A DNA stretch of 64,000 nucleotides from Polytrichum commune (taxonomy: Eukaryota; Streptophyta; Polytrichopsida; Polytrichales; Polytrichaceae). Under the pieces are notes generated by a model that did no database searches, had not been told where the DNA came from, and was given only the letters and a program-made list of their open reading frames with translations. The translations under genes were made by a program, and so were the position numbers. The stretch spans positions 26,534,001 through 26,598,000 of the forward strand of contig OX485804.1 of NCBI GenBank assembly GCA_950295325.1, written 5' to 3'. Shown piece after piece: positions 6,823 through 48,785 of the stretch (positions are counted from its first letter, which is position 1; each line of letters opens with the position of its first letter).

Positions 6823-6890
6823 ATCTTTTTCTGCTTACACACTGGCACATGTAGTTAGAATATTCCTTAATAATTCTAGTTACATTACAA

Positions 6891-6902: not shown

Positions 6903-6903
6903 A

Positions 6904-11361: not shown

Positions 11362-11373
11362 GGCATCCAACCT

Positions 11374-11385
11374 GCTCTGATACCA
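11374..11385 (-). other. Primer-binding site (tRNA-iMet)
   Basis: The sense sequence TGGTATCAGAGC is the classical complement of the 3' end of initiator tRNA-Met used by plant LTR retrotransposons. It starts three bases inside the 5' LTR boundary and defines where minus-strand DNA synthesis begins. Confidence 0.95.
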
Positions 11386-11579
11386 ATTTATTACGAACCT
11401 CTCACCGGTTGGCAATTTGTGTCTTGACCACAAAATCTCAAAGTAAAGAATTGAAACCAACACCAATTTTATTTCTTCCTCTAAGTACAAACCGCAACCA
11501 AATAAAGTTTGGTCAACGAAGCTCTACCACCCGACCATAGGAGAGAGACAAAAAATATCCTCTCTCCTCCCCCGAGCTT

Positions 11580-11588
11580 CCTTTTATG
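11580..11588 (-). promoter_or_regulatory. TATA-like box in the 5' LTR (likely element promoter)
   Basis: Same CATAAAAGG motif as in the 3' LTR, here positioned to drive the genomic RNA. The presumed start is near 11,550, leaving about 160 bases of R-U5 before the primer-binding site. Confidence 0.6.
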
Positions 11589-11728
11589 CCGAAGCACTAC
11601 TTTTACTTTCTATATTTACATATAGTAAAAGTATTCTATTCATAGCTCTATCTCATAGTTCTACTATGAATCTTCTATCTATGGTTCTTCTAGAACCTTC
11701 TTTCATCTCTTGTCTCAATTCCATTCTT

Positions 11729-12124
11729 CCAATTGGAACTGTCTAATTCCAATTGGATTCATCCATTCTTCTTTCTAGTTGGAACTGTCTAATTCCAACT
11801 AAATACATTCATCCTTCATTCCAGTTGGAACTGTCTAATTCCAACTTGGTTCATCCAACCTTTCTCTTAGTTGGAATTGTCTAATTCCAACTAGTCAATC
11901 TTCTAGTTGGAACTGTCTAATTCCAACTAGCTTTATCCATGGAGTGGTCTAACTCCTGTGCACCTCATCGAGAGTTGTCTAACTCATGTGCACTTGTTCT
12001 CACTTGGAATGGTCTAGTTCCAATGCACTAAATGCGGAGCTGTCTAACTCCAGTGCACATGTTGTCAATCTGGAGTTGTCTTACTCCTTTCCATTCATCC
12101 TCAACCGAGAGTTGTCTAGCTCTC
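11729..12124. repeat. Array of 11 hairpin modules in U3, 5' LTR copy
   Basis: Same array as 6427-6822, offset by 5302 bases and apparently identical. Here it lies upstream of the presumed transcription start, so it could act as a set of DNA sites in the promoter. Confidence 0.9.
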
Positions 12125-12196
12125 ATCTTTTTCTGCTTACACACTGGCACATGTAGTTAGAATATTCCTTAATAATTCTAGTTACATTACATTACC

Positions 12197-25570: not shown

Positions 25571-27470
25571 CCACATGCAATTGTAACATGATTCAATCAT
25601 TGCTTCATGCCAATCGTGTGGAATGGAGCGTGGGGAACGGAGCAAAAGTCCTTGAATGTGAGTGCCACAACTATAGTATAGTGGCCTCGTGTGTATTTCC
25701 AACTTCCCAATGTACGAGTCCCCACTTTGAAGTGTATATTAGTTGTGGTCAAACTTTGAGATTTAATTATTAAGTGCCAAATTTTGAGTATTGAGTGTTA
25801 AAACGACGCTTCAGAACTATGATAATTCAAAGTTGAGCGCCAGATTGTGCCTATGAAGTGTTGAAACAGCAAGAGGACCATAGAAATATGAACAAACCCG
25901 TGTCAAAGCTTGAATGTTGAACCATGTGTGACCACAATATGTTATTTTGGTGCATCATTTCTAGGTGGGAAAGCTATGTATTCAAAGTACTTTATTTGAT
26001 GTGCCTATTTAGCTTTGAACCCATCAAACTTTGAATCCATTACAAACGAGTTTCTCCATTTTTCATCCATGAATCGCAAATAGTATCCATTCCAAACATG
26101 TTAGATGCATGTTGGAAATGGCAAAGTACTTTAATCCAAGATCAAATCCACAATTCAGTCTCTCTTTGAGGGACTTTACATATAACTTTATTTACATTTG
26201 AGGAAAATATCCAAAATGGCTAGGTTGTTGGTTCCAATGTCATATTGGCATTGTGGAGGAACACTAATTAGATTGCATACCAAAAACTCAAAACATATCT
26301 CCTTCGTGTAGCATCGCCATAACATGATCAGTGGCATTTGCACCACGCTCCAAGAAATATTTCTTCATTAGTGAGCTTATTCCACCTTCACATGTATTTG
26401 GAGTGAAACTTGGGACATCTTGGCTAGGGTGGACAATTCCTACCTCAATTTATGCAGCGAGACGCGCCTAACTCCCTTTAACATGATACATACCAACAAG
26501 GAGGTGGCCCATCATATTGACATTGCCAATCACCGCCTCTACAAGTGAAACACACAACATGCACATTTGGTCCTCAAGTTGCTCTGTTGACAACGTATCA
26601 CTTTGTTTCTTGCAAACACACGGTGACTAGTGCTTCGTGGTTTGGAGGGCACTTGTTTTCCAACCATTGGAGTCAACAAATTTTGTGAGTCACAAGTTAC
26701 AATAATCCCCCATACACCGTCACAATAATACCTTCTCCAAGCAAGGGGTCAAGTAGTTGGAGAATTTTGACACACTGTTTGCAAATATACCCTCGATGTG
26801 CATATACACAATTGGAGCTCAACTACTTTGTTAATGGCTTGTGCATGATGCATGTCACATATGGTTTCTTCGCAAATCACACAAATGTAGGGCATACACC
26901 AATCACAAACAAAATGACATTGTTAGGGGGGATAGTTTTGGCAGCCAATAATGCACCCACCACAATGGGTTGGCATTTCTTGTTTGTGATGAAAGCATGT
27001 CATCTCTCAACTTTTGGTACCAATAATATGTCAAGGCCTCTCCAGTGACCTCGTGAATTGTTTGTTCCACTCGATTGCCCATCATTTTACTCTTCCCATA
27101 TTTGAGTACCGCCTTCATAGTGCCATAGTAATTCTTGACTACAACATCAGTGTCTTGACTTGGGTAAGGGATGTTCCGGTATCCAATGACCTACATTTGA
27201 GCTCTAAATAACCACTAATAATCCTTAACATAATCCCAAAAGGCTGTTGCATGGGGCATGGATAGAACTAAGGTTATAAGCTGAACCATAGCCTAGGGCT
27301 TTGCATTGGGCTTGGTGGCCCCTCCATGTCATACACGATGTCTCCCATGTGCTTGAGCATAGTGGATGACAAGGTAGCACTGTAACACAAAGAACAAAAT
27401 CGAGGTGTCACTTAGAAAATCTAATTCGAGTGTGCTCAATGGACACCAACATGCAATATGATATCATAAT
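25571..27470. other. Unassigned region with possible minus-strand coding relic
   Basis: On the minus strand between about 27,240 and 26,640, broken frames contain protein-like strings (for example HEVTGEALTYYWYQKLRDDM, then CEETICDMHHAQAI in another frame). No family is recognised and no splice model can be drawn. Confidence 0.25.
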
Positions 27471-27479
27471 ATAACAACA

Positions 27480-28140
27480 ATGCTACACATAGAATTGTAC
27501 TACAATGTGGCAACATGTATGAAATTTATGTGCAACACAAAAATGAAGTTGTAATTTTGCACCAAAGTGAACTTATAACACTACATCAAACTAAGATTTT
27601 TTTAACAACCCTGAAATTCCAATTCTAGTCTTGTACATATAATTTAATTGCAATATGATTGCAAGAATCATATTGCATTGCTTTAGAAAAAAAAACTACA
27701 TTGCAATGTAACAACATGTAAAAGATTTATGTATAGCAATAAAATAAAGTTATAATGTTGCATCAAGCATAAAACTTCTTATGCTAAATAAAGCTATACG
27801 ACCTTGAAAACACAATGGCAGTGTATCACGCAAAATCAAATTCATTTAAAATTGCAAGAATAAGATTGCATTATCATTAAAATAATAATAATACAAAGTA
27901 ACAACACGTAGAACATTTATGTATAGCAAAAAGAAATAAGTTACCATGTTACATCAAGGAAAAACTTCTTGTGTTACATTAACCACAATATTAATGTGTG
28001 ACCTTGAAATTGTGCAGTTTTTCATGTAGAATAGTGCACTATGATTGTAAGAACGGAATTGTAATGCTTCTTAATACATTAAATTGTAGTGTGACACCGA
28101 ATTCCAAAATCTAAGTGTTGCATAAAAGACATAGTTGCAA
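27480..28140. repeat. Degenerate tandem repeat, period ~195-205 bp
   Basis: The phrase 'acaacatgta-aa-atttatgt-tagcaa' recurs near 27,505, 27,710 and 27,900, followed by 'aaagttataatgttgcatcaag' and related text, with a partial further unit to about 28,140. Divergence between units is high. Confidence 0.65.
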
Positions 28141-28800
28141 TGTACCATCAAGAGTGAAAAAACACCAAAAATAAAGATCAAAATTGATTATCATGCTTCT
28201 GAGGTATGGCAGACGACTTCTTAATGAAGTCATGACCGTGGATAATATGCCGGAGTGGGTTCTAGTCCCATAATATGTCCTCCAACCTTGGAACATTGTT
28301 CATATCTTAGTTAGCCATAGCCTTGGCAACCATGAGCTCCCTTCACCATTGGAGGTCTTCTTCGAACACAAAATCTTCCAAATTGAATGCTTGCATATAC
28401 TGCTTGAATTCCATGTACAAAAATTTGGGGAATGCCATCTAAGGTGTGGGCATGAGGTCCAACCTCGGTGAGCCTTTGGAATGTGTCCCCGATTTGTGCG
28501 CTTGCAAACTATAATAAACCTTATGCTAAAAATGCACAACATACAAAGAAGGAAATAAAAATGATGTTGGAGTACTTTGGAGTGGGAATTCCAAGACAAA
28601 TATACATAAAAACATACAACAAAATCATACACATGGTTGTATCTAGAGGGTTGTTGTATAAATAGCGATCGTGTGTCACTGCAGCTCGAGTACCAACCAC
28701 CACTAACAAACAACACTAAAACATAACAAACAACATAACAAACATAACAAACAACACTAAAACATAGCAAAGTCACACATAAACAACACATCTTGACATG

Positions 28801-28810
28801 CCCCCCCCTT
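28801..28810 (-). other. Possible polypurine tract
   Basis: The sense text AAGGGGGGGG is followed by CATGTCAAG and lies about 320 bases downstream of the PHD finger. It would mark the start of a 3' LTR at about 28,798. Without a recognised second LTR this is tentative. Confidence 0.35.
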
Positions 28811-29128
28811 AGTTGACTATGGAGTCCCGCCAAGTAGCTAGGACCAATGCCAATCCAAAGGGCATGGATAATGAAAGATTACACTGCAACTAACTAGTGT
28901 GATAAACGTCATTCCAAGGAACTGTAGGCTGGGTGCAATGTGAGCCCCATATTTAATCGCCTCTGATGGTTGGCCATCAGATTCCAAATAATTAATTCTA
29001 CTGCCTCATGTTGATTGCGTCTCTAAGCCATAACTCCTTGTTTTCCATTTGGGCAGGTACAAGATGATGAAAACCACACATGATCATTAAATACGATTGG
29101 TGGAAGCACCAAGTACCGAAGATCCTAG

Positions 29129-29263
29129 ATAGCGAGGACAACTCCACTGTCCAGATGGTAGAGAAGTCAAGGGTGGCTTCAAACATGCAATGTGCCAACC
29201 ACGTTGACAGTGATCACATAAGAACATAGTAGCCGCTCATTTCTTCTCTCCACACACAAAACA
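29129..29263 (-). pseudogene. PHD finger at the C-terminus of the gypsy polyprotein
   Basis: Translation gives CFVCGEKK, a TGA stop, then AATMFLCDHCQRGWHIACL and PSGQWSCPRY. The cysteine/histidine spacing CX2C...CX2C...HX2C...WXCX2(Y) is that of a C4HC3 PHD finger, with the final cysteine changed to Tyr (TGT to TAT) and one codon changed to a stop (probably CGA to TGA). PHD fingers read histone H3 tails. Here it would sit where chromoviruses carry a chromodomain, downstream of the integrase. Confidence 0.75.
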
Positions 29264-29781
29264 TGAAAGACCCTCTGGCACGAAGGCCAGTTCAGGATAA
29301 ATTGTACCCTCAATGGATAGATGACACGGGGCACAATTTTTGGAATGCTCGCGACATTCCCTGCCATCCTTGCCTTCCAACAACAACAAACCACTCGGCA
29401 ACACCTCCTTCACTGAAGGATAGTGTGCCCCGCCCTGACATCCAATGTCGTAGGCGCCTCACGTTGGAGATAAACATAATCCCCCTGCCGGAATCTCCGC
29501 AATTGAGGTCGGTAAGTACCACTGCAAATGCGTGCATAACGCAATGTGTCACAGTATTGAGCAATGAACAAATTCTTCATGGCCACAGGCATGGCCCTTT
29601 GAAAGAATTGAGCCCGCTCCTACAAACACTCTGCCCAAATGTTTGGGTCATCCAAGTCCACAATATGAGCTAGTTTTTCCCGGATAGAACTCGGGAGTAT
29701 AGACTCACGTCCATACAACAACTGATACGGGCTGTAGGACACCAAAGAGACCTGCCTACTAAATCGATAGCCCATAGCAAT

Positions 29782-30300
29782 TCAAGGCAATATAAGGTCC
29801 CAATCCTGATGGTTCCCCCGAAGTAATCCATACTTCCTCAAACCACGCTTGGTTGTTTGAACAACCCGTTCAGCCAAGCCATCCGCCTCCGGATGATCCT
29901 GAGAGGTGGTACGGTGATCTATGAGCGCCTTAGTGCACAACTCCTCAAAAGCACCGAGGAACTCCTTCCCTTGGTCCGTCAATACCTCAGCCGGTGCTCC
30001 AAAACGTGCCAACACACAATCCAAAAAGGCGGCCGCAACCAACTCTGCAAAGTTTTGGAGTAAAGCAACAAGCTCAATCCACTTGCTGAAATGCTCCACC
30101 ATCACCAACACGTATTTTGCTTCACGTGGCGTGACAACCAACGGTCCCGAAAAGTCCACCGACCAATGGTAGCCCAATCTCATGATAGGTAAAGGCTGTA
30201 ACTGAGGTGACAAGGTGTTAAAGCTAAACGTGACCCGGTCACAAACTTCACACCTCCCGATATAAGCAGCCACTTGCTGATACATGCCAGTCCACCACTA
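29782..30300 (-). pseudogene. Integrase of the methyltransferase element
   Basis: Frame 30285-29782 includes the end of the zinc domain (CEVC), then the catalytic triad: Asp in HWSVDFSG (30154-30156), Asp in VLTDQGKEF and Glu in HPEADGLAERVVQ (29869-29871), spaced as D,D34-35,E. Further C-terminal integrase sequence continues in broken frames to about 29,400 (for example LRRFRQGDYVYLQREAP). The core itself has no stop. Confidence 0.88.
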
Positions 30301-30570
30301 TTGGCCATGCAACATCGAATGTGTTCTGCGTATGCCAAAATGGCCAAGTTCCTCGTGCACTTGTCGCACCAAGGAGACCTTATGATCCGGTCCAGAGACA
30401 ATACACCTTGTTCCATCCGCCCACAATCGAAATAACAAACCGATCTCCCAACGAAACCTTGTTATTCGATGTCCAATCCTATTCCTTTCTATTGCTGGGG
30501 TAGACGAAGGAAAGGTCCCCTACTGAAGCTTATGCAATACGGAAAGATCCTCCCATATATCCGTAATAGC

Positions 30571-32230
30571 TTAAGGTTGATTAGTTTCATCATTCAAGCC
30601 CTCTATCGGAACCTCAACAGCCGCACCAGAAAATAAAGTGAGGTAAACAGCTGCGTGCCAACCTGGAACTGTCTCTTGATCACAATCTCCATGCCACCTG
30701 GCCCCGGTCAAGTCCTCATCCGAAGGGCTTGGATTGCGTGAGAGTCCATATGCATCCAGGTTGGTAATCCCAGCAAGGTGTATCACCTCAAAGTCATACT
30801 CCTGGAACAACAAAACCCACATGACAAACTTGCCAGTAAGCTTATTCGACTCTATGAGCCACCATAACGGTTGATGGTCAGTCACCAAAGTAAAACGCTG
30901 ACCATAAAGATATGGCCGGAAATGGGCAATAGCCCACACTGCCACCAATGTTTCTCCCTCGTAGGACAAATAATTTGCGTCCGCAGTGTTATTGCTTTGC
31001 AAAGCGTAAGCAACAACATACTCTGACCAAAATCACTCTTTTCAGTGAGAACTGCTCCCAAACCCAATGAAATCTAGTCCGTATGCAACTGGAAGGACTT
31101 GGAGACATCCGGACGTCGAAGCACTGGAGCTGCACCTAGTTTCTGCTTCAATGTTTCAAATGCCTGCTGCTGTTCACGACCCCAAGTCTAAAGTTGGTCC
31201 TTGCTCGTGAGAATGGTGAGAGGCTTGGCGATCAAGCTAAAATTCTTGACGTATCGACGATAGTAATTCGCCAAACCCAAGAAAGCACGAAGTCTCGGCA
31301 CATCGACCGGTGCCGGAATCTTCTGCAAGGCGTCCACCTTAGCTTGCTGCACTCCAAGACCTCTTGGAACAATCATATGACCTGGATATGCTAGTCGGTC
31401 ATGGAAAAACTTGCATTTGCCATGGTGCAAGCGCAATCCTCACTGCCACAACCGCTCAAAAACGGTTTGCAGTTGCCTTACATGCTCATGTGGTGCTTTG
31501 CTGAAAATAATAACGTCATCAATGTAATACTGAACAAAGGGCAAGCCAGAGAGAACTTGGTCCATCACTCTCTGAAACTCAACAGATGCATTTTTTAGGC
31601 CAAATGGAATAAACTTCCAATGATACAGTTGATCTTTCCCATCATGATCAACTTCCTAGAATGTGGTTTTCACTCGATCTCCCGCAAGTAATGGGAGCTA
31701 GTGATAGCCGGATCTCAAGTCTAGGGTGGTAAAGACCTGATAAAATCTGATGGCATCAAACAACTCCTCCGGGATTGACATGGGATACCGATCCGACTTG
31801 GTCTTCCGATTAACTAGACAATAATCCCCGTACATATGCTTCTCCGTCCAATTGCCAAAGATATCTTTCTTTGATGGCATAACCGTAGCACAAGCATACT
31901 CCCCGTTGGAAAGTTCGATTAACCTTGCTGCGAAGAGCTCTCAGCAACGAGCCTGAACGCCAATCTGCTCGGAAACATTGAGCTTATAAGGTCTTTGAAA
32001 AATGGGATGGTCGTCCTCCAACTGAATATAAATGGGTTTTCCTTTATAACCTTTAAGATCTTGAAGGCTTAAAACAAAACACCTACGGTGTAAGCGAATA
32101 AATGCTCGTACTTTCTGTGCCTCGGCACCAGTGAGATGAGGGCTTAATTCCAATGGCCAATCATCAAACTCTGTGGTCTCCCTCTCCACCAGAGGAGAGC
32201 CACCCGGTGCTGGCACGAACTCTAACTGCT
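30571..32230 (-). pseudogene. Reverse transcriptase and RNase H of the methyltransferase element
   Basis: Frame 32216-31941 holds the acidic spacer before RT (RPYKLNVSE near its end). Frame 31880-31698 has the RT palm start, ending TTLDLRSGYH with the first catalytic Asp. The YIDD active site is at 31515-31526 and the thumb (FLGLANYYRRYVKNF) at about 31,290-31,240. RNase H starts with HTD followed by a TAG-type break near 31,080 and continues 31002-30571 with TDHQPLWWLI. Stops and frame changes disrupt it at several points, but all catalytic motifs are still readable. Confidence 0.85.
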
Positions 32231-32519
32231 ACTGAGAGGAGGGGGCATTAACCATGCCCCTAACCTCTGTGCTAGCAATAGAGTCCATCCCTTTTTCATC
32301 ACCACCAATATGTGATGATGAAGCCACCACCAGAGGTGAAGAAACCAAAGCAGTATAAACCCGTTGAGCTTGGAGCTCCTCCATCACTTGTTGCCCAAAT
32401 CGAAAGATTTGTTCGGTTTTTCCAACCACGACTTCAATTCCGTCCTTCATGGATATGAACCCATGTGCCCTCTGACCAGCATCATCTGTCCCCAAAGACA
32501 ACAACTAGTCACCATGATG

Positions 32520-33480
32520 CCGTTGCAATGCAAGGCATAAACCAACAGTCCACACCATGGTATGAAGATCCATGGCTTGGCCCAACACGAAGCACCGTTG
32601 GCCCTAAAAAATGCCAGGAGCTGCGGTGGTACCAGTGCAGAATCCCATGGTACGCTCTTGTTCGTCAACCAATGATTCGGTGTGGGTTTTGGTGTGAGCA
32701 TCCCATACCATACCCGGCCCCCGATCACGAAATTAGAATAACTGTGAAAACGTTATAAAGGTGGGAAAGGCCCTCCGTGTGGTGCCCCCACTTTGTTGAC
32801 CAATGCCAACGGGGGTAAATCATCTCAAACAACAGGCAAAGAGGTCCGAGTTGGATCCAAGATGTCATCCACCTTCTGAGAAAAAGGTGGAGGTACTACA
32901 GAAAATGCTGCAGCTAAAGTAGATGACCGTGTGAGGTTGGTCCAAATCCACCAAGGCCAGTGGGCATAAGAACCAAGGCTCGCGACATCCACAAAAATGG
33001 GATTTCCAAGGTGTTGACGAATATAATGGTGGCCTTCCAACACCTTGTCCCGAAAGTATCCCAACAAAGGTCCATTCTCGAAGATATACCCTAGAGGGGA
33101 AGGTTGGTGGGAAAACCACCACTGCATGAGGCGGATGAGGTCCCAAAATAGACTAAACCTAGGATCCTCTAGACCTCGGCCTGCTCCAGTACGTGAATGG
33201 CCCTGGCATGGCCATCCCGCAATCATCATATCCACCAGACCCAAGTGTCGTAAGTCGACCTCACTTATGAGTGTGACATCACGAGGAAGACGTGAAAAAC
33301 ACCCACGAATGGCAGTCGGGTGTAACTGCTATGGGTACAACACCATCAACGGGTGGGCACTTGAGAGTTGTCCACATAGACATACCGTCTGACCGTGAGG
33401 CCAACCTCCAATACGGCCGCTAAGCCCGTGCCGATACCCCCAAACAGTTCTACCAAAGTGATCCCCACATCTGGCGGGCG
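32520..33480 (-). pseudogene. Cytosine-5 DNA methyltransferase domain inside the retrotransposon
   Basis: The domain has the order of C5-methyltransferase motifs. Motif I: LVELFGGIGTGLAAVLEVG (about 33,465-33,405), the SAM-binding loop. Motif II-like acidic residue in YVYVDNS. Motif IV: GWPCQGHS with the catalytic cysteine at 33206-33208. GRGLEDPRFSLFWDLIRLM follows, then motif VI FENGPLLG (catalytic Glu at 33077-33079; the usual ENV reads ENG). Motif VIII area: GSYAHWPWWIW, where arginines expected in the family seem replaced by Trp. Motif X: GQAMDLHTMVW (about 32,582-32,550) in another frame. A frameshift lies between motifs I and IV, a TAG at 33329-33331 and a TGA at the end of the frame at 32825. 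The chemistry would be transfer of methyl from SAM to DNA cytosine. This copy cannot be active. Its location between protease and RT implies it was part of the polyprotein. Confidence 0.88.
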
Positions 33481-34600
33481 CTACAAAATGGGGTGTACCA
33501 ACACCGATGGGCTATCCGGTATGACCGGTGTCGTTGAGGCGAGAGAGAGGATGATGTCCCCACCTCGTCGGAATAGCTCGGCGGAATCGCACCAAGGAGG
33601 ATGAGGATCTTGGGAATGACGCACCAATGTACTGTGAGGTGTCATCTCTCGCTGATCCTCAATACTCCCCATAAATGCCAACGATTCCTCCAATAATGCG
33701 GACCCATAGGACAATGTGTCAACAACAACACCACATCCAAAAACCATGGATAAGGATGCTATAGTAGCGGCCGCCGCGAACGCCACAAGACTAAGTTCCA
33801 TGCGGCCATCCCTAGCCGACCAACCTGGTCGGATCCATGCCTCTTCAGTCCAGTTGTCCAAACCAAAATCAAGAGGATAAAATGTTTGCAGACCAACTAA
33901 AATGTCATAGTTGGTCGAATCTGTAACCGTACACCTAAAAAGAAGAGGTGCGGGTGGATCATCATGTTTCACTCGGAAGCTAAGTTGTAATGGCTTCCGA
34001 GTATAACTTGTGGCATGCTCCACGTGGCCAACCGATGTGACAATGGTAAATGGGCAAGGAGCCAAGTCGTCAACCGTCAACCGCAATTCTTATTCAAACT
34101 TTTTGCCGATCATAACATGTTGTGCTCCCGAATCCATTATCACACACTGGGAAGCAACTCGAATAGGGTTGCCCCCAGCCCGACTCACCACCAAAATGCC
34201 ATAATCATTCACCATAAGTACAACGCCAGATCGAATGCCTCGACGCTCGCCAGCAGGTAGAACAACGACATTTGAGAGATAAGTTGCGCTCGCGGAGGCT
34301 GGTGAATCATAAGATGACGTGGGATCTTGGCCATCCGAGGCATGTGCGTCAAAAGACGCAATGGCCTCTGCTGCAAGCCTCGCTCGTCGTCTAGCCGCTT
34401 CCTCCGGGTCTTCCGTGGTAGGAAGGTCGGCGGTGGCTTGAGCCACAGTCAAATAAGACGAGGGTACCTTTTCTTCCAAAATCCTACCTGCTAGGTGAAA
34501 AACCTTAGCGGGTTGGAGGCCGAATGACGAGCACTCCATCGCTGTGAACAAAGGGGTGTGCAACACTTTGGATGCCTCCAAGCTCGAATTACGATCACTA
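33481..34600 (-). pseudogene. Aspartic protease region of the methyltransferase element
   Basis: The minus frame 34581-34090 ends shortly after the protease triad in VIMDSGAQHVM (DSG at 34126-34134). After one in-frame TAA (34090-34092) the same frame continues to 33481, including YDILVGLQTFYPL, typical of the C-terminal half of retropepsins. Only that one stop interrupts the domain. The region joins the methyltransferase domain after a frameshift near 33,480. Confidence 0.75.
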
Positions 34601-34739
34601 ACATATTGGACAACATCCGCCAGCCCAAAAGATAATGGCAGACGGACATAGCCAATCTAATCCAAGGGACCATTGTTCTGAGCTTGTAATGTCGCAACCC
34701 TTGCTAGTTTTCCTTCACTTAGCTTGACCGCCTTTCCAA

Positions 34740-35960
34740 CCTAGCAAGTGCCACGAGCGCTAACATGCACATCCCACGCACATGCATGGTTAGCTCCCAA
34801 AACCGCGGACCTTCAAGCTCATGGCTAGGTCACCAAACCCTCCTACACATGCATTCGGGATTCTCCCCTTAGTAGGTAGCCAATGGCTAAGGTGGACTTC
34901 CATTCATGGAAGTCCACTCTTGAGTTGATCATCGTGTTGCCAAAACAACACTACAACTACCCGGAGCACATTGCCAAGTATGCTCCGGGGGGGTCGGTCG
35001 GCTAAGCCGCCTCACCCATATAAGCCTCTAGGACTTTGGGCGGGGCCCCTACCCCACCTTCAAGTATCCTTTTGTCTCTCTCTACAAGGGTTGGGGCCAA
35101 GTGGACATTTTCCCTTAGCCGTTGGGGCTAGAACCTCCCAGCAGCTTCAGACCACCATAACTTCTACATATGATGTCTGATGCTCTCAAGCGACCACTCT
35201 ATCGTCATCTACTCTTTGCGTAGATGCCGATGGACCCCTCACTTGCCCCATTTGGGCAAGTATTGAGGAAGTTATGGCTCCTCAAACCTTGGCAGTCCCG
35301 GGCACCACTCCCAGGTCACTGCTGTCCCAGGGTGCTGTCCCAGGACAGCGCCCCACTCAAATGGCCATATCTCCTAGCTACACTAAATAGGTAGATTAGT
35401 GTTGGAAACACTAATAGTCGACGAAAACGCTAAATGTCAATTGTCTTCATAGTGTTAGAACACTAGATGTCAACTCTAACACTATTTGTACCAATTAGTA
35501 ACTTGGAATATTTACAAAAGCGCATTTAGTGTTAGATGACATTTTTTGTAGATCTTCAAATGAAGAATTGGAGGTAGAATATGTGAGCCTCATAGAAAAT
35601 GTAATATGCTAGGAATTTGATATTACAAAATTTAAACTTCATGGAACTCAACTTTGACAATGCAAAATAAAGACAAAGGAAATTGTAACACTAATTGTAC
35701 TTTCAAGTGACATTTAGTGTTTTGGGTAACTATTGGCTCTAACACTAATCTTCATCTAACACTAATCTACCTATTTAGTGTAGCACCTCCGATTGAGGTG
35801 TTCCTTAGCATTCTAGAATTCCACCGCCATAAGCTACTCATAACTTATGGCCTTACCCTCATGACTCTTAGTCCCCATGGGTGAGAGGCGTTCTCAACGC
35901 CCGGGGCCCTCACCCACACTAAGAGTACTTGGGCCCTCTCACCAATGGCGCCACAAGTCC
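34740..35960. other. Non-coding stretch between gag and protease, likely nested insertion
   Basis: The gypsy reading frame cannot be followed here. The stretch contains the MITE at 35379-35782 plus GC-rich text with short palindromes (for example 'ggacttcc-attcat-ggaagtcc' near 34,890-34,915). It may be a solo LTR or other insertion into the element; no ends were proven. Confidence 0.4.
35379..35782. mobile_element. MITE with perfect 25 bp inverted repeats (TACACTA family)
   Basis: The left end starts TACACTAAATAGGTAGATTA and its perfect inverse closes the element at 35782. The match extends outward by GC to 27 bp. The interior is rich in TAACACTA/TAGTGTTA motifs. If TA is the target duplication the core is CACTA...TAGTG (35381-35780). 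It has no coding capacity. It lies in the stretch between the gag and protease remnants of the gypsy element. Confidence 0.8.
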
Positions 35961-37642
35961 CGGGTGTCACTCCGGGGTCCCCCTTGTGCCCATGGTGTTG
36001 CGGGCACTCGTCATGGAGAGGTGCGCGACATGTAAGTTGTTTACAGATTCCACTGTGGTCGAAGGCGTGGCTTGTGATATGGATTGACCACGTGTCACCG
36101 TTGCGGAACTCACCACCTCCCCCGAGACTCTGAACATATAATAATCCGGAGTGGAAGAACTAGCCTTAGCTCCGGAAGAAGACGGTGAGTCCAACATTTG
36201 ACCGGATGACACCAAATTTTTGAACATCTCCTCCAAAGCTCCAATGTTCGCCTCCAAATCCTTTTCTGAATCGGAAGAATGACGTTTCTCTAAATGAAGA
36301 GCGAAACAGTTCTCTACAGCGTGATTGTTCCGCCCACAATGGGAACACTTTAACTTCTTGGGTAAATGTTTACCCGCCCCCTTCGTTGAATCCTTAGGGA
36401 GAACAATTGGTTTCCACTTCGGATTACTTATGGTCTGGACTTACCTTTGCCTCGAAGGACAATCCTTCTTAGCGTGGCCCGTCTGCTTACAAAACCAACA
36501 ATACAAGGTTTTGTCTACCTCTGCCTCCGCCAATCCCGCAGCCGCAACCGGAACCTTCCAGGATTTGCTAGAATCCACTAGCATGGACACCAAGTCAGTG
36601 ACATCGTACTGACAAAAGGCACGATCACACTGCTCAACAATGGAGAAAACCTCTACAAGTGTCGTCTGGCCACCATAATCCATGATGATTCTGGAGAGTG
36701 CTAAGTCAATGAGGCGTTTGTCAATCTTTGACAAAAGACCTTCACCAACTGACTCTCTGTGAAAACACCTCTAGATTCTCTGGCAAACATCGCCAACCTC
36801 GTGTACATGGTACGAGGTGTATCATCTTTCTCCCATCGAAAGTCTTGGATCCGCTGCATTTGATCTCGGCGGAAACCTCCATATTCCTCCTCCAAATGGA
36901 GTTGGAATTCCTGCAGAGGATCAAAATCAGGCGGAATCCCTAAAGAGGCTAATGCCGCATGAGTAGCCTGGGCATAGCGCGATAATAGAAAGTTTAGACT
37001 CGACGTACTCGCGGATGCGGAAACGATAACTTTCTCCTTAGGTTCACCATGGAATGTCCCCTCCACATCCACAACAAAGACGCCCTTCGCTTGTTCCGTC
37101 TTCACCACAGGAGCCGCCAATGAACTAGAAGTTGCGTCTTCCTTCAATGCGGAAACCAACTTCACCCGAGTCTTCCAATACCGCTCCACTTGGCGCAACT
37201 CCATCTAGTGAGCATCCCTTCATTAGTCATATGTTTGAAGTGCTTCGTTCTCCAAATGCTGAGGTAAAAATTCAAACGCATACCAATCATTAAAATTGGT
37301 ATTACGTTGATGTTTCACCCTCATCCACGTTTTAAACCGAATTTTCCAGTTTTGCAGAGAAATGATCCATGCTCGACCGAAAAACCGGTTTCGGACTCCA
37401 CATCGCGTCTCTTCCTTCATATCGTCAAAGGTCCCTATCCAAAGGTCGTGAGACCGAATGGCAGTCCCCCACGCCGAAATAGGCTGAAAAGCCTCGTCGG
37501 GTGCTACCACTGGTTCGACGTCTGAGAGGATTGATGGTCGACCTTCCAATGCTCCTGGAGATGGCGAACGATAATGTTGGCTCCGAGTTGTAATCATAAA
37601 CCCACAATGAATATGGTGACTGGAGCAAGAATGATTCTTCAT
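35960..37642 (-). pseudogene. Gag region of the methyltransferase element
   Basis: Frames 37642-37223, 37204-36701, 36734-36441 and 36350-35967 together give a Gag-like protein. Two retroviral-type zinc knuckles are visible: CWFCKQTGHAKKDC (36500-36459) and CSHCGRNNHAVENC (36347-36306), both CX2CX4HX4C, separated by about 37 codons including one in-frame stop. A stop near 37,223 and a frame change near 36,720 also break it. Two knuckles in tandem suggest RNA binding by nucleocapsid. Confidence 0.75.
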
Positions 37643-37865
37643 GCTTGATGGATGAAAACAACCTTGGCAAATACTTTCGACAATATATATTTTGATTATT
37701 CAAGAATGTTACCTCCAACCACTAAGATTGTGAATGTGTCCCCTTCTAAATGGATGTCAATTTATTTTTTTAATTTATTTTTGAACAACTGATTGTCACC
37801 AAATATCAAATTTTGTTAATAAACAAAATTTTGAAATTTTGAAAAAAAATTATTTTTTAATAAAA

Positions 37866-38035
37866 AAGACCCCCCACCCTGCCGGCTGCTGGCAGCGGGG
37901 CCCGGGGAGGGTGGAGCCGGGGGCGGGGAGCCCCCCTAGGCTAGGGGGTGGGGGGCAAGAGGGGGGGCCGGCTTGCTGCCGGCAGCTTGGAAGGCCAGGA
38001 GCTTCAAGAAGAGCTCCTCCGTTTTTTTTAAAAAA
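37866..38035. repeat. GC-rich island with internal palindromes
   Basis: About 165 bases of very high GC lie between AT-rich flanks with A/T runs ('aaaaaaaattattttttaataaaaaag' type at left and 'ttttttttaaaaaaatt' type at right). Palindromic pieces include GCTGCCGGCAGC near 37,975-37,987, partly inverted relative to TGCCGGCTGCTGGCAGC near 37,880. The composition is unlike all neighbours. Confidence 0.55.
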
Positions 38036-39440
38036 ATTGAATGAAGTGCTCCCTAAATTGGAATCAAGAATGATTCTTCATGGCTCAATGACGTGATTCA
38101 AGATTGCAAGCGGTCAATTGATACGAAATTCCGTGGACAATTTAATAATTCATCATCAAAATTCACCTTGATGTGGCGTTTACAAATGAGCATCCCTCAT
38201 CTTGTAATTCCGCAAATTTGCAGTGTCCTCCGTTCCGGTACTCCGCAACTTCGTTACTCCTTGTCCTCATGCCCTCCCTTGCGTGTTCTATCTTAAGAAT
38301 GAAGAAGAAAACATAAAAATGAAGCATTCTTGCCAAGTGAGAAAGAAGAGAGTCAAACCCTTGCAAGAGCTCTAATTCTCTCTTCAAATGCACACAATGA
38401 GTTAAACTATCTTTTACTCCACCACGGGAGAATCCAAGAATGTAAGAAAAGGAAGAAGAACTCAAGATTTATTGCAAAAACATGCAATCTTCACCTCATA
38501 CAAGCTCTCTCCACACACTCACTCATAAGACTTGACTTGGCAAGAATGCCAAGCCAAGGAGGAGGCTCCTCACTTAGGAGCCTTCCTCTCCACATCTAAG
38601 ATTCATTCATCCAAATCTAAATGGATAAAGTCCAACGGATAAGGTGTGGCCGCCGACGCCGCATACCGTGACAAGGTGAACTATGAGTGCAAAAGATAGA
38701 ACAATGAAACAAAACATTGGTGCTTAGGAATGTACCCGTCCCAAGGTTGACCAATACCAATAGTCTGTAGAAGTTTAGTGGGCCATGTGGAAGAAGAAAT
38801 ATACTTAAGAAATTTGTGCCTAAAATTTCTCAAGGTGTAGAATTTTCATTTCTAATCAACCAACCCCATTTCACTCATAAGAATATACCACAAACCTCGA
38901 GTCGTGTGGGCTTAGGGTTTTACAAACCTTTTGAAACTCCTATGGAGGTTGTCAATTGGGCCTCTTACTTTCCTTTGTGCAATAGAATGCTCTCTTTCAT
39001 ATGTACTGTGAGCCCAAAATGGTGCCCACATGTGGTGATTAACTCTTCGAAACCAATTTTAGTTTGACTTTGATGTGTTATGATTATTCACAAAACATAA
39101 AAAGAGTGAAGTGTGGTTTGGATTTAAGTTTAGGCTTTAGAATGTGTTGTGTGATTATTTCAAGGTTGAATTCAATAAGAGTATGCCTTGATCATGTGAG
39201 TAGGGGGTAAGGTGAAGCAAGGTGAGCTCCACGGGTTAAATGCCCACTTTTGGATCCACCTTGGTAGTTTAGGAAGAAGGAAGCTTGGTGGATGGGGATT
39301 AGTCCCTACTTTGGAGGAGAAGGTTAGAGGATTGTGATTGGGGGTGCTAATCCTCTCACCCTATCCTCACCTCTCTCTCCCTCTCTCCCTCTTCCCCTCT
39401 TTGCTACTTAAGGTGTTTTCTCTCTCATTTTTCTCTCTCT
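38036..39440. other. Intergenic DNA, nothing recognised
   Basis: Only short frames without domains. From about 39,355 to 39,450 the plus strand is pyrimidine-rich (CT repeats) with a 'gctacttaagg' box, which could be a promoter or LTR leader, but no gene or LTR pair could be linked. Confidence 0.4.
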
Positions 39441-39444
39441 CCAT

Positions 39445-39600
39445 CTAGTCCCCTCCAGGAGGTGAGCTCTTAGAGCTTGAGCCACGTGTGTGGGTTGATT
39501 AGTTTTTAGTGAAGTGAAGGAGTTAAGCTCTCTCTCTAGTCCTCTCAAGGAGGTGAGCTCTTAGAGCTTGGAACCACGTGTGTAGATTAGTTAATGTTGT
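39445..39600 (+). repeat. Direct duplication of ~90 bp
   Basis: 'ctctctccatctagtcccct' continues into 'ccaggaggtgagctcttaga' and 'gcttgagccacgtgtgtggg' (39,441-39,506). The block recurs at 39,531-39,594 as 'ctctctctagtcctctcaag', then 'gaggtgagctcttagagctt' and 'ggaaccacgtgtgtagatta'. Each copy carries a CACGTGTG core. Function unknown. Confidence 0.75.
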
Positions 39601-39772
39601 TAGTTTATTAGTTAGTTTATTAGTCAAAGAATAAAAGAGTTATTCATTGTCCGATTAAGCATCTTGAGAGGATTACATTTAGTGTGTAGTTGAAAGGCTC
39701 GCATGTGGGCCTTTGACTAATTAGGTGATTAGGTGGATTGTGGTAAATTTTAGTTCGGCTTGATTAAGCTTC

Positions 39773-40483
39773 TGGATCACCGAAGTCTGGGCTAAGCCCT
39801 TGCAGCACCAAGGTCTGGGCTAAGGCCCTGGATCACCGAAGTCTGGGCTAAGCCCTTGCAGCACCAAGGTCTGGGCTAAGGCCCTGGATCACCGAAGTCT
39901 GGGCTAAGCCCTTGCAGCACCAAGGTCTGGGCTAAGGCCCTGGATCACCGAAGTCTGGGCTAAGCCCTTGCAGCACCGAGACTGGGCTAGGCCCCTAGAT
40001 CACCGAAGTCTGGGCTAAGCCCTTGCAGCACCAAGGTCTGGGCTAAGGCCCTGGATCACCGAAGTCTGGGCTAAGCCCTTGCAGCACCGAGACTGGGCTA
40101 GGCCCCTGGATCACCGAAGTCTGGGCTAAGCCCTTGCAGCACCGAAGTCTGGGCTAAGGCCCTGGATCACCGAAGTCTGGGCTAAGCCCTTGCAGCACCG
40201 AGACTAGGCTAGGCCCCTGGATCACCGAAGTCTGGGCTAAGCCCTTGCAGCACCAAGGTCTAGGCTAAGGCCCTGGATCACCGAAGTCTGGGCTAAGCCC
40301 TTGCAGCACCGAGACTGGGCTAGGCCCCTGGATCACCGAAGTCTGGGCTAAGCCCTTGCAACACCAAGGTCTGGGCTAAGCCCTTGCAGCACCGAAGTCT
40401 GGGCTAAGCCCTTGCAGCACCAAAGTCTGGGCTAGGCCCTTGCAGCACCGAAGTCTGGTCTAAGGCCCTGGAGCGCCAAGGCT
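39773..40483 (+). repeat. Minisatellite, ~25 units of 28 bp in alternating types
   Basis: The basic unit is about 28 bp with the core 'gtctgggctaag'. Two types alternate: tcaccgaagtctgggctaag + cccttgca, and gcaccaaggtctgggctaag + gccctgga, forming a 56 bp dimer. A third, 26 bp variant contains 'gagactgggctagg'. The first type holds the dyad GGGCTAAGCCC. The unit length is not a multiple of three and stops appear in every frame, so it is not coding. Confidence 0.93.
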
Positions 40484-41985
40484 GTAAGCTATTTAAATTA
40501 AAAGGTTACCTGGTTGGGTAAACCATTTACATTTAATTAAGCTAAGAGGCCACTTGGAGTTGGAACTAATCAATTAGGCGCAAACATATTCTAGCATCTA
40601 TCACATTAGATTCTTTAAAACCTTAATTAGCCATGGGAAAGTAGTTAGGACTTTTAGTATAGTTAGAATTAAGGGTGGCCGCAAGGCAATTGTGTGGGGG
40701 CATATCTAACCATTAAGGGAGTGTTTTTCAACACTTACATCCTTTTTGGTAGAAAATCGATCACTTATAAAAAAATGGAGAAAGCGGAAGACTCTAGCAA
40801 TGGTCAAGTAACGAATAGAATAATCAAAGGCCAAAGGGGGATATCCTTGAGAGCTTGTGTTGCCAAGGCCACCAGTTGGACTCTTGAGAAGGCCAATTCG
40901 GTCACAAGTCAAGAGGTCACTACTAATAAACAAAGTGATTCAAAATGACATGTATGCCTCGGGATGCAAAGAGATCATTCTTTTGATACGAACAATACAT
41001 GTGATTCTCAACACCATCACCCGGACTAGGACGCCTAAGGGGGGTGGTTTTGGCCTCACACGTACACATCTATTTTCCATGTGATTGATTGACATGTGCG
41101 CACTGGTTGATACACTGGTGGCAATCTAGATCTCTGCCTCAAGGAGTTATGTAATGAAACACTTTGAAGCACTTCACAAATAGTGGCATCCACTAAAGAT
41201 GTCCTACCCAATGCGGGGAGGACAAGCTTCTTAAATGAAAAAAATAGAATTCTCTTTCAAAACAATTCCCGCATGTTTGGGACCAATTATTTGTGCGCAT
41301 GTAGTGACACTGCTTCAATAAACCTATCTTCTTGGTGTCAAACATAGTGTCTCATGGTGACCTCCCAATGTAGATCTCTACGATCAAATCGTCCACATGG
41401 GAGTATTTGGACCTTACTCTCTTGGGCCTAGAAGTTAATGGAATCCAAATTGCTAATACATGGGGTGTTTGGGATCTTTGTTTTCCTAGGATGTGATGTC
41501 ATGTGTGCTTGTGATTATGTGAAAGAATGTGGAACTGTTGGTCACAATCGGAACGGACTAGAAATCATTGCAACTGTGACTCAACGTTACCTATTTGGCG
41601 TTGTTCCAGACAAAAAACTCATGTGTTGCCGCCATGAGTTCAAACAACATCATAATCATGCATTTGTGTTGGGTAGCAATGTTTTGCAGTGTAGTATGAG
41701 AGCAATGAATTGCATGGTTTCTCATATGTTGGAAGGTCTAGCTATTAAGTCATCCATCTTGGGAGCACAACATTTCAAAGACAAATACTTCCAATGAAGG
41801 GACTTGAGAACAATAACATTCTTTGTGCTAGAGGGTGATGATGCATATTATACTAGATAGCACAAGATGTTCTAAACGTGCTATGCTGAGTGGTATAGTA
41901 CATGGAGCAAAACCCTAACTGAACATTGTTGTCACATCACACTTGAACACAATCTCTGTTCCACACGATTGGCATGAAGCAATGA
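40484..41985. other. Unassigned region with two plus-strand frames
   Basis: Frames 40694-40948 (84 codons) and 41438-41797 (119 codons) are open. The second is cysteine/histidine-containing (CRHEFKQHHNHAFVLG) and reads like real protein, but I do not recognise it and no splice partners were found. It may be transposon-derived. Confidence 0.3.
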
Positions 41986-41989
41986 TGGA

Positions 41990-44165
41990 GGCATGCTACA
42001 ATTGCATGTGGGAGAGATCCTCCCTAACAAGAAACCAAAAAAATACAACTTAAACAACAATCACCAAACACTACACCCTTCAACCTTACAAACCTTAATA
42101 GAAACCTACCACATTACACACTCGTATTACTCCTCACCCCTCACATGCCCAACAATACTCACACACTGCAACTCCCCACATAATCGAGACATGATTTTTG
42201 GATCAACAAGTATCGCACACTTGTCAAAATGGGAAGGCAACAACTTAACCCACAACAAGTTTGCCATGTCATCAATCCACTGGGCCCGGATGGCAACCCA
42301 AGAAAATCATAACGCCACAACCATTGTCATACTCAACTATAAAGAGACCCCCCCCCCTCCCCATCAACCCCACACACACACACACACACACACTATCCTA
42401 ACCATCCTACCTACCACCATACAATCCAACCCCACATTGGAATGGCCATAATACCTACACCATCTAGAAAACTAATATACCACCATAGTGTGTATCCATA
42501 ATCAAAGATTCCCACCGGGACAACAACATACACTCAACAAACTCACACCAAACATATTTGGATTATACGACGTCTATGTCAAAACCAACTTAATACAAGG
42601 TACCCCCCTTAAAAACAAAGTTAAATACTCCCATGCATGGCAAACTGCCCCAAAACACACCCACACATAAACCAATTATTCAACACAATCTCTACCCGCC
42701 AAACTATGTAATACCCACTCCCTTAAGTTTAATCCACAACAATGCATATATGTTGATGGCTCATTTATACCCCTTGACGATAAAGGTGTAGGCAACATAG
42801 CCGGCTCAGGTGTCTACAACCTAGCCAATAACATTTGAATTGTTGAGAGACTCCCAAGATTACAAAACATACTTAGGGCCGAATTAAACGCCTTACTAAT
42901 AGCAGTAAACACTACATGACACCACACACAAAACACCTACATCTTAACGAATAGCCTTAATAGTATATACCTAATAAATAACCACATACAATACCCATCA
43001 TCCCAACACAACCACCCCGATAAGCTACTCATAGCTACCATAGTCAAACAAATAATCATGTTCACACACAAAATCACAATACAAATAGTTAGAGCACACA
43101 CTCGCATAATAGGCAACGAAATCGTTGACTAACTAGCAAACGGTAGAACCCTCCTAAACAAACCCACCAACACACCCCGGATACATACAACTCACACCAC
43201 ACCATACTGGTTGAATGGGATCCCAACTGGCACACACATAAGCGCTATACACAACCTACAAGCATACATCAACAAAGACCACATGAGTAAAGATTTAAGA
43301 TTGGCTCAATCCAAATTCACATATATAGATAAATGGACATCCAACAACCAAATCAACGACAAACTCTCCAACCAATTTTGGAAAAACCCCATGATCACAT
43401 ATGCTCAAATCACACAAAAACTGAAATTCCGATACAACCAATACACGGGCAACTAGTACAAAAACAAAATTGGCCCACTCTACACCCAAACCCGAACTGC
43501 ACACTATGCTCCAATAATGCCATAGACACTTGGCCACACTTACTCTCTAAATGCTCAAATCCCCACATAAAAAGACTCCGTATAGCCCGCCATAATAACA
43601 TAGTACACCAAATAGCACACACGCTATAATCAAACAAACACACGAGATCCTACACACGCATCAACGCATGAAACCAAAACTCTAGACCTCAAAACATCAC
43701 AGTCCCACAATGGCTACTCCAATGCACATGCCCCATCCCCCCGTGTACACGCTTAGCCAAACTTAGGCCAAATATCTCATGTGTACTAGGTGCCCCATTG
43801 ATAGCGACCCCCCCCCCCCCCACACACACCAAATGCCATACAATTCATAGAATTCACCTACTACCATGACAAATTTCCCAACACCGCCCACAACAAAAAG
43901 GGCACTAAACACAATGCATTCACACAATCACTTAGAACAACGGGATGGCAAGTGAACCCCTCATCACTATCACAACCAGCGTTAGAGGAGCCATCCATGT
44001 ACAATCAACTCAAGAATTAAAATGACTCAAAATACCCAAAAAGGAAGTCATAACACTCATGAAACAAAGACATCAAATTGCCATTAATTACCTCACATAC
44101 CTGATATTATATTTTAAAAAAACTAGAAAACAAATAACCACCCCGTAGACCCCCCCCCCTTTGAC
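41990..44165 (+). mobile_element. AC-rich LINE fragment (ORF2 C-terminal part with RNase H), decayed
   Basis: The sense strand is very rich in A and C. Frames 41993-42451, about 42,730-43,456 and 43333-43629 give the C-terminal portion of a non-LTR retrotransposon protein. An RNase H-like domain shows YVDGSF (first Asp), RAELNAL (Glu), then TNSLNSIYL, where the expected catalytic Asp is Asn, and GNEIVD. A zinc-binding CTLC...DTWPHLLSKC motif lies at about 43,498-43,554. Stops interrupt it at many points. A related copy lies at 61,298-64,000 on the other strand. Reverse transcriptase is not seen, so it is 5'-truncated. Confidence 0.65.
42371..42393. repeat. (CA)n microsatellite within LINE coding DNA
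   Basis: About 11.5 CA units, read as His-Thr repeats in the LINE frame. It follows a run of 10 C (42348-42357). Confidence 0.95.
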
Positions 44166-47285: not shown

Positions 47286-47504
47286 AGAAGTAATTCTCAT
47301 TCTCACACCAAATTCGCTCCCGAAAACAAAGTACATGGAGTTATAGCTTGCCCGTGGGAGAATTCCTCGCTTCAAAATGGGGAGCTTGGGGTGGGTAAAG
47401 CAACAGCTGCTGGGAAGCCCATCATCCTCATCATCGCCTGCTTGCATTTCCACTTGCATTTCAGATGACCGCATTTTTGGAGGTACCTACAAGTTTTCAG
47501 GTCT

Positions 47505-48785
47505 CTAGAAATGTTTTGGTGGAGTCTTACTACTGCAATCGCAATTTTGTTGGACTGCATTGCTGGTAGCTTACAAGCGAAGAAATCTGAATGACAAATT
47601 GCGCGAGTCGAGTTTCGTTGAGTTCTTCCGCGAGTTGCATTTCCGGTGTTCCACTGGACATGTGGTTGTACATCCAACCGTGAGCTTGTCTCTGGAGGTT
47701 CAAGAGTTTATATGACGAATGGAAATGGACTGTAACGCAATGAAAATTCTTATTGCAGGTATCAGGGTTTAAGTAGGGTTTAAGAGCAAGAATTTAATAG
47801 ATTCTCTGTCATTTTCTGGAAATTTTGTGGTGGAGTCTGACTGCTGCAATTGCAATTTTTGTGGATTGTATTGCTGGTTATATATATAAGTAAAGAAATC
47901 TGAATGAGAAATTGTGCGAGTTGAGTTTCGTTGAGTTTCTTAACTCGCCGAGTTCGATTTCCGGTATCCCAAGCTGGACATGTGGTTTTAAATCCGACCA
48001 CGGGCTTGTCTCTGGAGGTTTAAGAGTGTATACGACGAAAGGAAATTGATTGTGAAATTCTCAGTGTGGGGAGCGGGATTTAAGTAGGGTTAAAGCAATG
48101 AAATGCATCAGATGCTCTGTCTTCCGCTGGAAATGTTGTGGTGGAGTCTTATTATTGCAATTTTTTGGATTGCATTACTGGTAACATATAAGCGAGGACT
48201 TCTGAATGAGAAATTGTACGAGTTGAGTTTCATTGAGTTTTTCTTGAAGTTGCATTTCCGGTGTTCGAAGCTGGACATGTGGATGTGCATCCAACCATGG
48301 GACTTGCTCCGGAGGTTTAAGAGTGTATGTGGCGAAACGAAAATGATTGCGTAATTCTCAGTGCAGGGAGCAGGGTGTAAGTAGGGTTTCAGTAGGGTTT
48401 AAGCAATGAAATGCAACAGATGGTCCGTCTTCTGCTGGAAATTTTGTAGTGGAGTCTTACTTGCTGCAATTGCAATTTGCTGTTAGTTTATTGGCGTCTA
48501 CCATTACGTAAGCGAAGAAATCCTCATCAGAAAATTCTAGGTCTGCAAGTTGAGTTTTGTTGAGTTTCTTAACTCGAGTTGGGAAAGGGTTTTCCCAGAG
48601 AAATTTCAGTGTTCCAAGCTGGACATGTGTTTGTATATGCAACCATGAGTTTGTCTCTTAAGGCTAGAGAGTGTATATGACGAAAGGAAACTGATTGTAG
48701 CGCACTGAGATTCTCAGTGCAGGGAGCAGGATTTAAGTAGGGTTCAATTAGCAAGAATGCGATAGGTGCTCTGTCTTCCGCCCAT
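47505..48785 (+). repeat. Tandem repeat, 4 copies of ~310 bp, in or next to intron 1
   Basis: 'tggtggagtcttactactgc' and its variants start units at about 47,512, 47,825, 48,134 and 48,443. Each continues with 'gcgaagaaatctgaatga', 'gagtttcgttgagtt', 'tggacatgtgg', 'gcttgtctctgga' and 'agtagggtttaag'. Small frames inside (for example 48103-48354) do not stay open in all copies. The array separates the candidate first exon from the supported second exon. Confidence 0.9.

Follow-up and report, generated by a model that had tools for sequence, protein, structure and literature searches.

Plants silence transposons by DNA methylation, and for this reason it is a puzzle that a plant transposon should keep a DNA methyltransferase of its own under apparent purifying selection. 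The question is raised by a Ty3/gypsy-type element that lies on the minus strand, at 38673-28652, of the 64,000-nucleotide stretch that was analyzed as a whole and is called the window in the following (C2:26534001-26598000 of a host assembly of 407.8 Mb in 64 contigs, seven of which make up about 406 Mb). Read along the element, its parts are a terminal repeat A1, Gag with a zinc knuckle, the protease, the methyltransferase, the reverse transcriptase (RT), RNase H, the integrase, a PHD finger and a terminal repeat B.

The methyltransferase in a multicopy family

A preliminary description of the window had recognized the cytosine-5 methyltransferase motifs I, IV, VI and X in this order, and they are indeed found on the minus strand as LFGGIGTG (near 33447), WPCQG, FEN, AH.P.WIWTNL, which represents motif VIII, and LGQAMD (near 32585). 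The profile check that this description had proposed was positive, as the open piece 33328-32825 matches the Pfam family PF00145 with an E-value of 3.1e-9 and 37.2 bits, over a cut-off of 22 bits. As had likewise been noted, the domain shares its strand with the RT, RNase H, integrase and CCHC zinc knuckle, which were found with Pfam, and with a protease recognized by its DSGA motif.

A PF00145 search of the host genome gave at least 123 scored matches among 353 candidates, all 123 above the cut-off, and 19 of the 123 matches listed are located in frames that stay open for 1325 amino acids or more. Twenty copies were fetched, namely 18 of these 19 and two with frames of 1296 and 1241 amino acids; they were found through the methyltransferase domain and are biased towards intact copies. 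The order Gag, protease, methyltransferase, RT, RNase H, integrase and PHD finger is present in all twenty, with the zinc-knuckle piece in 19, and the Gag piece 37204-36701 of the window likewise matches 20 of 20 copies and its CCHC piece 19. From the other end of the element, a search for the integrase-PHD region gave at least 150 matches among 561 candidates. Among the matches listed, 58 of the 123 methyltransferases have such a region downstream on the same strand within 12 kb, which is a lower bound for the paired share and compares with a mean of 0.27 in 200 shuffles; in 55 of these 58 listed pairs the spacing is 3563-4001 bases. For 92 integrase-PHD matches no methyltransferase partner was listed; twelve of them were inspected, and ten of these twelve carry the methyltransferase at the expected place. 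A third subfamily, to which the copy L026 belongs, is further removed, with 39% in the methyltransferase piece and 62-67% across RT, RNase H and integrase; it has the same domains, except that the zinc-knuckle piece found no match. The matches are unevenly spread, with 32 of the 123 listed on contig C4 (0.54 per Mb vs 0.20-0.33 on the six other large contigs). Judged from its sequence, the methyltransferase is carried regularly by a Ty3/gypsy-type family that has many copies and has moved recently, and we regard the identity and architecture of the element as practically certain.

The land-plant home of this family, which the preliminary description had supposed, is read from LEAFY genes: PF17538 has six matches at three places in the host genome and none in 14 control genomes, so that the host is a land plant or a near relative of one. 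One of the LEAFY copies has a histidine at what we take to be position 312, presumably the type of vascular plants and liverworts.

The enzyme, the stop codon and the PHD finger

With the 167-residue window piece as query, 60 proteins were found at E <= 0.01 among 107 candidates, the best of them with 80% identity across the whole piece. A profile of 50 relatives places DNMT3A at the top (7.2e-21, 77.6 bits, over motifs I-VIII, and with motifs IX/X in a further, weak match that is collinear), and DNMT3C and 3B follow. The match to DRM (2.5e-11) ends at profile position 165 of 437, and HaeIII and HhaI (about 2e-6) and DNMT2 (about 5e-6, about 29 bits) are found further down. A single intact copy as query likewise has DNMT3A at the top (2.1e-8). 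The window piece alone ranks HaeIII and HhaI before DNMT3A, and motif IV reads WPCQG in the element enzyme vs SPCND in DNMT3A, the PCQ being as in DNMT1 and bacterial enzymes. It is because of these last two observations that we call the enzyme divergent; by profile match and motif order it is assigned as DNMT3-like and unrearranged. A DRM-type enzyme is ruled out by the unrearranged order I-IV-VI-VIII-X and by the profiles. In an alignment of 161 relatives, out of 209 proteins, the catalytic cysteine is kept in 108 of 111 and the glutamate of the ENV motif in 90 of 106, and the two arginines of motif VIII in 79 of 104 and 84 of 101. A tree of 81 methyltransferase domains has several deep clades, and a structure model from 12 sequences was poor (mean predicted local distance difference test score 35.3) and was not used. 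As described in PMC6453930, true DNMT3 genes are retained in non-flowering streptophytes and were lost by angiosperms, and a host DNMT3 is therefore conceivable as the donor of the element enzyme.

Relatives of the fusion are found among public proteins. The protease-side open reading frame (ORF) as query gave 70 proteins among 390 candidates, and 25 of these extend at least 12 residues beyond the end of the query. In 17 of these extended proteins the methyltransferase is found by BLASTP, and in the remaining eight its first residues can be recognized by eye, in some of them over a short stretch or in another frame; in P0108 and P0125, also among the 70, the methyltransferase appears by eye to be mostly or wholly lost through deletion. 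A profile search yielded 270 proteins among 8000 scored candidates, and the listed relatives, the best 120 of the 270, include proteins from the named bryophyte genomes of Calypogeia fissa (48% identity) and Sphagnum troendelagicum (49%). One methyltransferase, P0130, is filed under a metagenome-assembled genome of Candidatus Obscuribacterales and is probably plant retrotransposon DNA that was binned with bacteria. With P0001, P0130 or P0152 as query in IMG/VR and with P0130 or P0150 in the GTDB genomes, searches that reach close relatives only gave no relative, and a prokaryotic or viral home was rejected on these searches.

The preliminary description had placed the methyltransferase between protease and RT, and this position holds; the domain does not lie inside an uninterrupted Pol, however, and instead ends the Gag-protease frame before a conserved UAG. 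ORF1 comprises Gag, protease and methyltransferase, and ORF2 comprises RT, RNase H, integrase and PHD finger, the two sharing one frame with a single stop between them. ORF1 has 1356-1386 amino acids in 17 of the 20 fetched copies and ORF2 1045-1048 in 11. The intact copies for which a genome search had been suggested thus exist, as in ten of the 20 (L009, L011, L012, L013, L015, L017, L018, L020, L022 and L025) both ORFs are full and the UAG is the sole stop between them; those of the ten that were dated are young. No other ORF of at least 350 amino acids, apart from ORF1, ORF2 or their pieces, was listed on the coding strand of the 20 stretches.

The UAG is embedded in the context UAG-CAR-YYA in all of the 28 loci L001-L028 (27 were recognized by pattern, and L026, with UAG CAG CCA, was read separately), and also in the window copy, where it reads UAG CAG UUA with the stop at 32231-32229. 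Its position was taken from the ORF junction where the ORFs were listed and, for L001-L008, from the distance to the methyltransferase with the frames unchecked; in L023, a frameshift ends ORF1 slightly early, and the UAG context is nonetheless present. In L005, the stop stands in CAA TAG CAA TTA, which we take to be the exact 12-mer of tobacco mosaic virus (TMV), and CAR YYA is the wider form of the type I leaky context. This context is described in PMC2754532 as UAG CAA UYA, found in TMV and beet necrotic yellow vein virus, with about 10% readthrough for TMV in vivo. Given this conserved context, the UAG of the element very probably acts by readthrough, and as a consequence of its leakiness the methyltransferase would be made together with Gag and would outnumber RT and integrase.

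The PHD finger directly follows the C-terminal region of the integrase in all 20 fetched copies, and it is intact in L011 and L018, where the C4HC3 finger scores 40.9 and 41.5 bits with PF00628 (cut-off 24). Its relatives in the PDB include the fingers of PHF12, CHD4, KDM5 and ATXR5, which are readers of the histone H3 tail, and the finger of the element is probably such a reader as well. Pfam scans of ORF2 in L011 and L018 gave no chromodomain at E <= 0.01. With respect to PHD fingers in gypsy elements, the literature, with subscription papers and bioRxiv thinly covered, gave the Ginger1 paper alone as relevant among the papers listed.

Ratios of non-synonymous to synonymous substitutions (dN/dS) were calculated after Nei and Gojobori and pooled over pairs of open-frame copies (16 of the 20 for ORF1, 12 for ORF2). 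For the methyltransferase, dN/dS is 0.11 between subfamilies A and B, at a saturated dS of 2.4, and 0.24 within B. The protease has 0.34 within B and 0.32 within A, and the RT has 0.03 between the subfamilies, 0.07 within B and 0.09 within A. For the PHD finger a value of 0.07 was obtained between subfamilies and 0.44 and 0.64 within them, the latter on about one change per pair, and the ORF1 tail has 0.62 between subfamilies; for Gag, protease and integrase, saturation of the synonymous sites precluded a between-subfamily value. These ratios point to purifying selection on the methyltransferase between subfamilies, and therefore to a domain that is kept, if less strictly than the RT.

Ends of the element and the copy in the window

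Instead of two ordinary full long terminal repeats (LTRs), the element possesses split direct repeats, which in L011 and L018 are arranged as A1 on the left and B1-A2-B2 on the right. Pairs of both A and B repeats were found in 11 of 13 copies examined; L026 has the A pair only, and L019 shows no terminal repeats in the stretch read. The element ends are TGTC...GACA, and all nine of these 13 copies in which both ends were read are flanked by perfect target duplications of 4 base pairs (bp), namely GAAG, GATG, TAGC, CATC, ACTT, TTAT, TCTT, GAAG and GAGA. A1 and A2 of these nine differ by 0-2 substitutions over 334-567 aligned bases, gaps aside, and are 94.6% identical in L014, because of gaps, and at least 99.3% identical in the other eight, so that most of the nine dated insertions are young. 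TG...CA ends with a target duplication of 4-6 bp belong to the definition of Ty3/gypsy elements, and the element agrees with this group in the order protease-RT-RNase H-integrase, the DDE integrase, the TG...CA ends and the 4-bp duplications. The integrase core (rve, PF00665) is above the cut-off in both copies scanned, L011 and L018, and the 4-bp duplications argue for integration by this DDE integrase.

In the window copy, the left terminal repeat A1 (38673-38339) begins with TGTCACGG, is flanked by ACCT and is 89.6% identical over 335 bases to repeat A of L018. The Gag region with the first zinc knuckle (37640-36441) is broken, and the knuckle matches zf-CCHC (PF00098, 21.3 bits) in the ORF 36770-36441. 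Between Gag and protease lies a later insertion of 1341 bases on the same strand (36030-34690), a probable solo LTR with the ends TGTCGC...GCGACA and a 5-bp duplication, TTACA; by eye, the ORF ends of the public proteins P0025, P0033 and P0102 resemble translated pieces of this repeat. The aspartic protease with its upstream stretch (34656-33760) has a DSGAQ motif and a piece that matches 20 of 20 copies; matches to PF13650 and PF13975 are weak and below the cut-off in intact copies. The methyltransferase domain (33462-32508), in which the motifs follow as I-IV-VI-VIII-IX/X and whose relatives' profiles best match DNMT3A, contains frameshifts and stops, and behind it the fast-evolving tail of ORF1 (32507-32229) ends in the UAG. 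The start of ORF2 and the RT (32228-31100) are spread over several frames, with PF00078 in the ORF 31655-31440, and are followed by RNase H (31032-30571; PF17917, 7.2e-18) and by the integrase (30440-29400), which consists of an H2C2 zinc finger, here below the cut-off, the DDE core (PF00665, 9e-14, at 30297-29782) and a C-terminal part. The PHD finger at the integrase C-terminus (29263-29132) has one internal stop and, with this stop read as X, matches PF00628 with 3e-10 and 40.4 bits at the cut-off of 24.

On the right, a G run at 28808 precedes a single repeat B (28798-28652; 95% over 43 and 91% over 96 bases vs repeat B of L018), which is flanked by ACCC. The TGTCAAGATG at 28798 was considered as the start of a 3' LTR, which is wrong, as it is the start of repeat B. 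No A2 and no second B were found beyond it, and a repeat search over 26000-42000 gave no direct repeat that pairs both ends of the window copy as ordinary LTRs would. A single B without A2 is the outcome that would be expected from recombination between B1 and B2, and the flanks ACCT and ACCC resemble a 4-bp duplication that has decayed. With frame changes and several stops in the methyltransferase, a split RT and a stop in the PHD finger, the window copy is dead and decayed. At sites where L018, L020 and L022 agree, its C/G transitions amount to 0.132 in CG, 0.144 in CHG and 0.107 in CHH, and its A/T transitions to 0.047, i.e. cytosines have decayed in all contexts, without a CG peak.

Elsewhere in the window, a minisatellite built of units of approximately 28 bases lies at 39704-40481, some 1 kb outside the element on its left side, and tandem arrays with units of roughly 210 and 310 bases are found at 726-1784 and 47504-48781. 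The GC skew is -0.48 at 42001-44000 and +0.52 at 62001-64000, a strong strand asymmetry of opposite sign, and parts of these two segments are reverse-complement relatives with 66% identity.

Related systems and possible roles of the enzyme and the PHD finger

Like chromoviruses, the element has a gypsy backbone whose integrase ends in a chromatin-reading module, a probable one here; unlike in chromoviruses, this is a PHD finger in place of the chromodomain, and the methyltransferase, the split repeats and the leaky UAG context are additional. A complete chromovirus lies in the window itself (6087-12191). With its identical 803-base LTRs it is a very recent insertion, and its single ORF of 1539 amino acids comprises gag, protease, RT, RNase H, integrase and chromodomain, with no methyltransferase in the Pfam scan. 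To our knowledge, Ginger1 transposons contain no RT, and we know of no methyltransferase in the rice gypsy element RIRE2. Ginger1 elements, as described in PMC2836005, resemble the present element in a gypsy-like integrase with extra C-terminal domains, among them a PHD finger in Ginger1-9_HM, and differ from it as animal DNA transposons with Ulp1 or OTU domains. For RIRE2, stop-codon readthrough has likewise been proposed (cited in PMC2754532).

The known precedent is KnitGypsy-Dnmt3 of Klebsormidium nitens (de Mendoza et al. 2018, PMC5890265), and the comparison with this alga in the preliminary description was apt. According to the published description, by which and not by sequence the two were likened, both have the gypsy domain set, an unrearranged Dnmt3-type enzyme in the polyprotein and DIRS-like repeats, and both are under purifying selection, with a Ka/Ks below 0.2 in KnitGypsy-Dnmt3 and about 0.11 between subfamilies here; they differ in the host and in the at least 123 scored matches of the present family. 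Among the hits inspected, no Klebsormidium sequence was identified. The main text of the paper by de Mendoza et al. makes no mention of a PHD finger, a protease or readthrough. It also describes SymbioDIRS-Dnmt3 and SymbioLINE-Dnmt of Symbiodinium, which are likewise retrotransposons with captured methyltransferases and differ by their DIRS or long interspersed nuclear element (LINE) backbones, SymbioDIRS having a tyrosine recombinase; the SymbioDIRS enzymes methylate CG in yeast (PMC5890265). Apart from the Klebsormidium paper, no plant retrotransposon with a methyltransferase was found among the papers listed, which is no proof of absence, as subscription papers and bioRxiv were thinly covered.

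How could an element profit from making the mark that silences it? Most ribosomes would stop at the UAG, and the methyltransferase would be made in step with Gag and enter the particle, while a minority would read on through the UAG into the polymerase part. The methyltransferase would then mark the element's own new DNA, or the insertion site, so that the element arrives already methylated, and the PHD finger, at the place of the chromodomain in chromoviruses, would bind the H3 tail and help to choose the insertion site. We lean towards this explanation as a whole, in which a Gag-coupled enzyme marks its own new DNA and the PHD finger aids the targeting of integration. More tentatively, methylation of its own DNA may be the function that is selected. 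With the same reserve one may picture an element with its own writer and reader, a DNMT3-type enzyme packaged at Gag level and a PHD finger on the integrase, whose copies are methylated before or at landing in chromatin chosen by H3 marks and whose split repeats are joined to a DDE integrase.

Several observations weigh against such a role. L051 and L055, two of the 12 inspected integrase-PHD matches, have no methyltransferase within the 800 bases read, and within the young subfamily A the methyltransferase has a dN/dS of 0.58, although on few changes. Selection on it appears weaker than on the RT (0.03-0.09) and about like that on the protease (0.32-0.34). Since the cytosines of the window copy have decayed without preference for CG, this decay gives no pointer to a CG-writing enzyme that acted on the copy. 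In yeast, no activity was obtained with KnitGypsy-Dnmt3, which its authors regard as inconclusive (PMC5890265).

It is rather unlikely that the methyltransferase instead restrains the element or marks host chromatin, in which case methylation of the surrounding genome DNA would lower transposition and harm and let mild copies persist. A similar idea is found in the discussion of de Mendoza et al. (PMC5890265), and a multicopy element with young copies evidently coexists with its host. However, the Gag-coupled expression expected from the UAG context fits a role in the particle better than a self-brake, and nothing in the data shows a genome-wide target. Less probable still is that the function of the domain is not DNA methylation, and that it has RNA as its substrate or serves to bind nucleic acid within the particle. 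The domain is encoded on the Gag side, which is where RNA is packaged. RNA methylation has been raised for the LINE enzymes by their authors (PMC5890265), but here the relatives retain the motifs for catalysis and for the cofactor, and the profiles favor DNMT3 over DNMT2 (77.6 vs about 29 bits).

We consider it very improbable that the split direct repeats indicate a DIRS-type element integrated by a tyrosine recombinase, as might be supposed from the 11 of 13 examined copies that have both the A and the B pair. Elements of the DIRS order possess a tyrosine recombinase and make no target duplication, whereas here the integrase piece is found in 20 of 20 copies, with rve above the cut-off in both copies scanned, 4-bp duplications surround nine of nine copies, and the coding strands of the 20 stretches offer no further listed ORF of at least 350 amino acids. 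That gypsy pieces inserted into a separate host methyltransferase gene, or that a single copy acquired the domain by chance transduction, is suggested by the broken frames of the window copy and by nothing else, and this reading, which the preliminary description had set against its own together with the absence of the domain from other copies, has virtually no chance and is ruled out by the copy comparison, as the domain occupies the same place in 20 of 20 fetched and 10 of 12 inspected copies, the ORFs are fused in the 17 BLASTP-matched public proteins, and one pair of ends with a target duplication encloses the whole.

This kind of element is already known from Klebsormidium. Four features are new as far as we have seen: a plant host that harbors young copies whose frames are open, a PHD finger, a leaky UAG context behind the methyltransferase, and 4-bp duplications that flank an element with split repeats. 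The precedent found comprises one alga and dinoflagellates; the host here is, by its LEAFY genes, a land plant. Its young, open copies make it possible to ask by experiment why a transposon should produce a silencing mark, and the pairing with a PHD finger, the UAG that would link the dose of the enzyme to Gag, and the split repeats with target duplications each give a testable statement.
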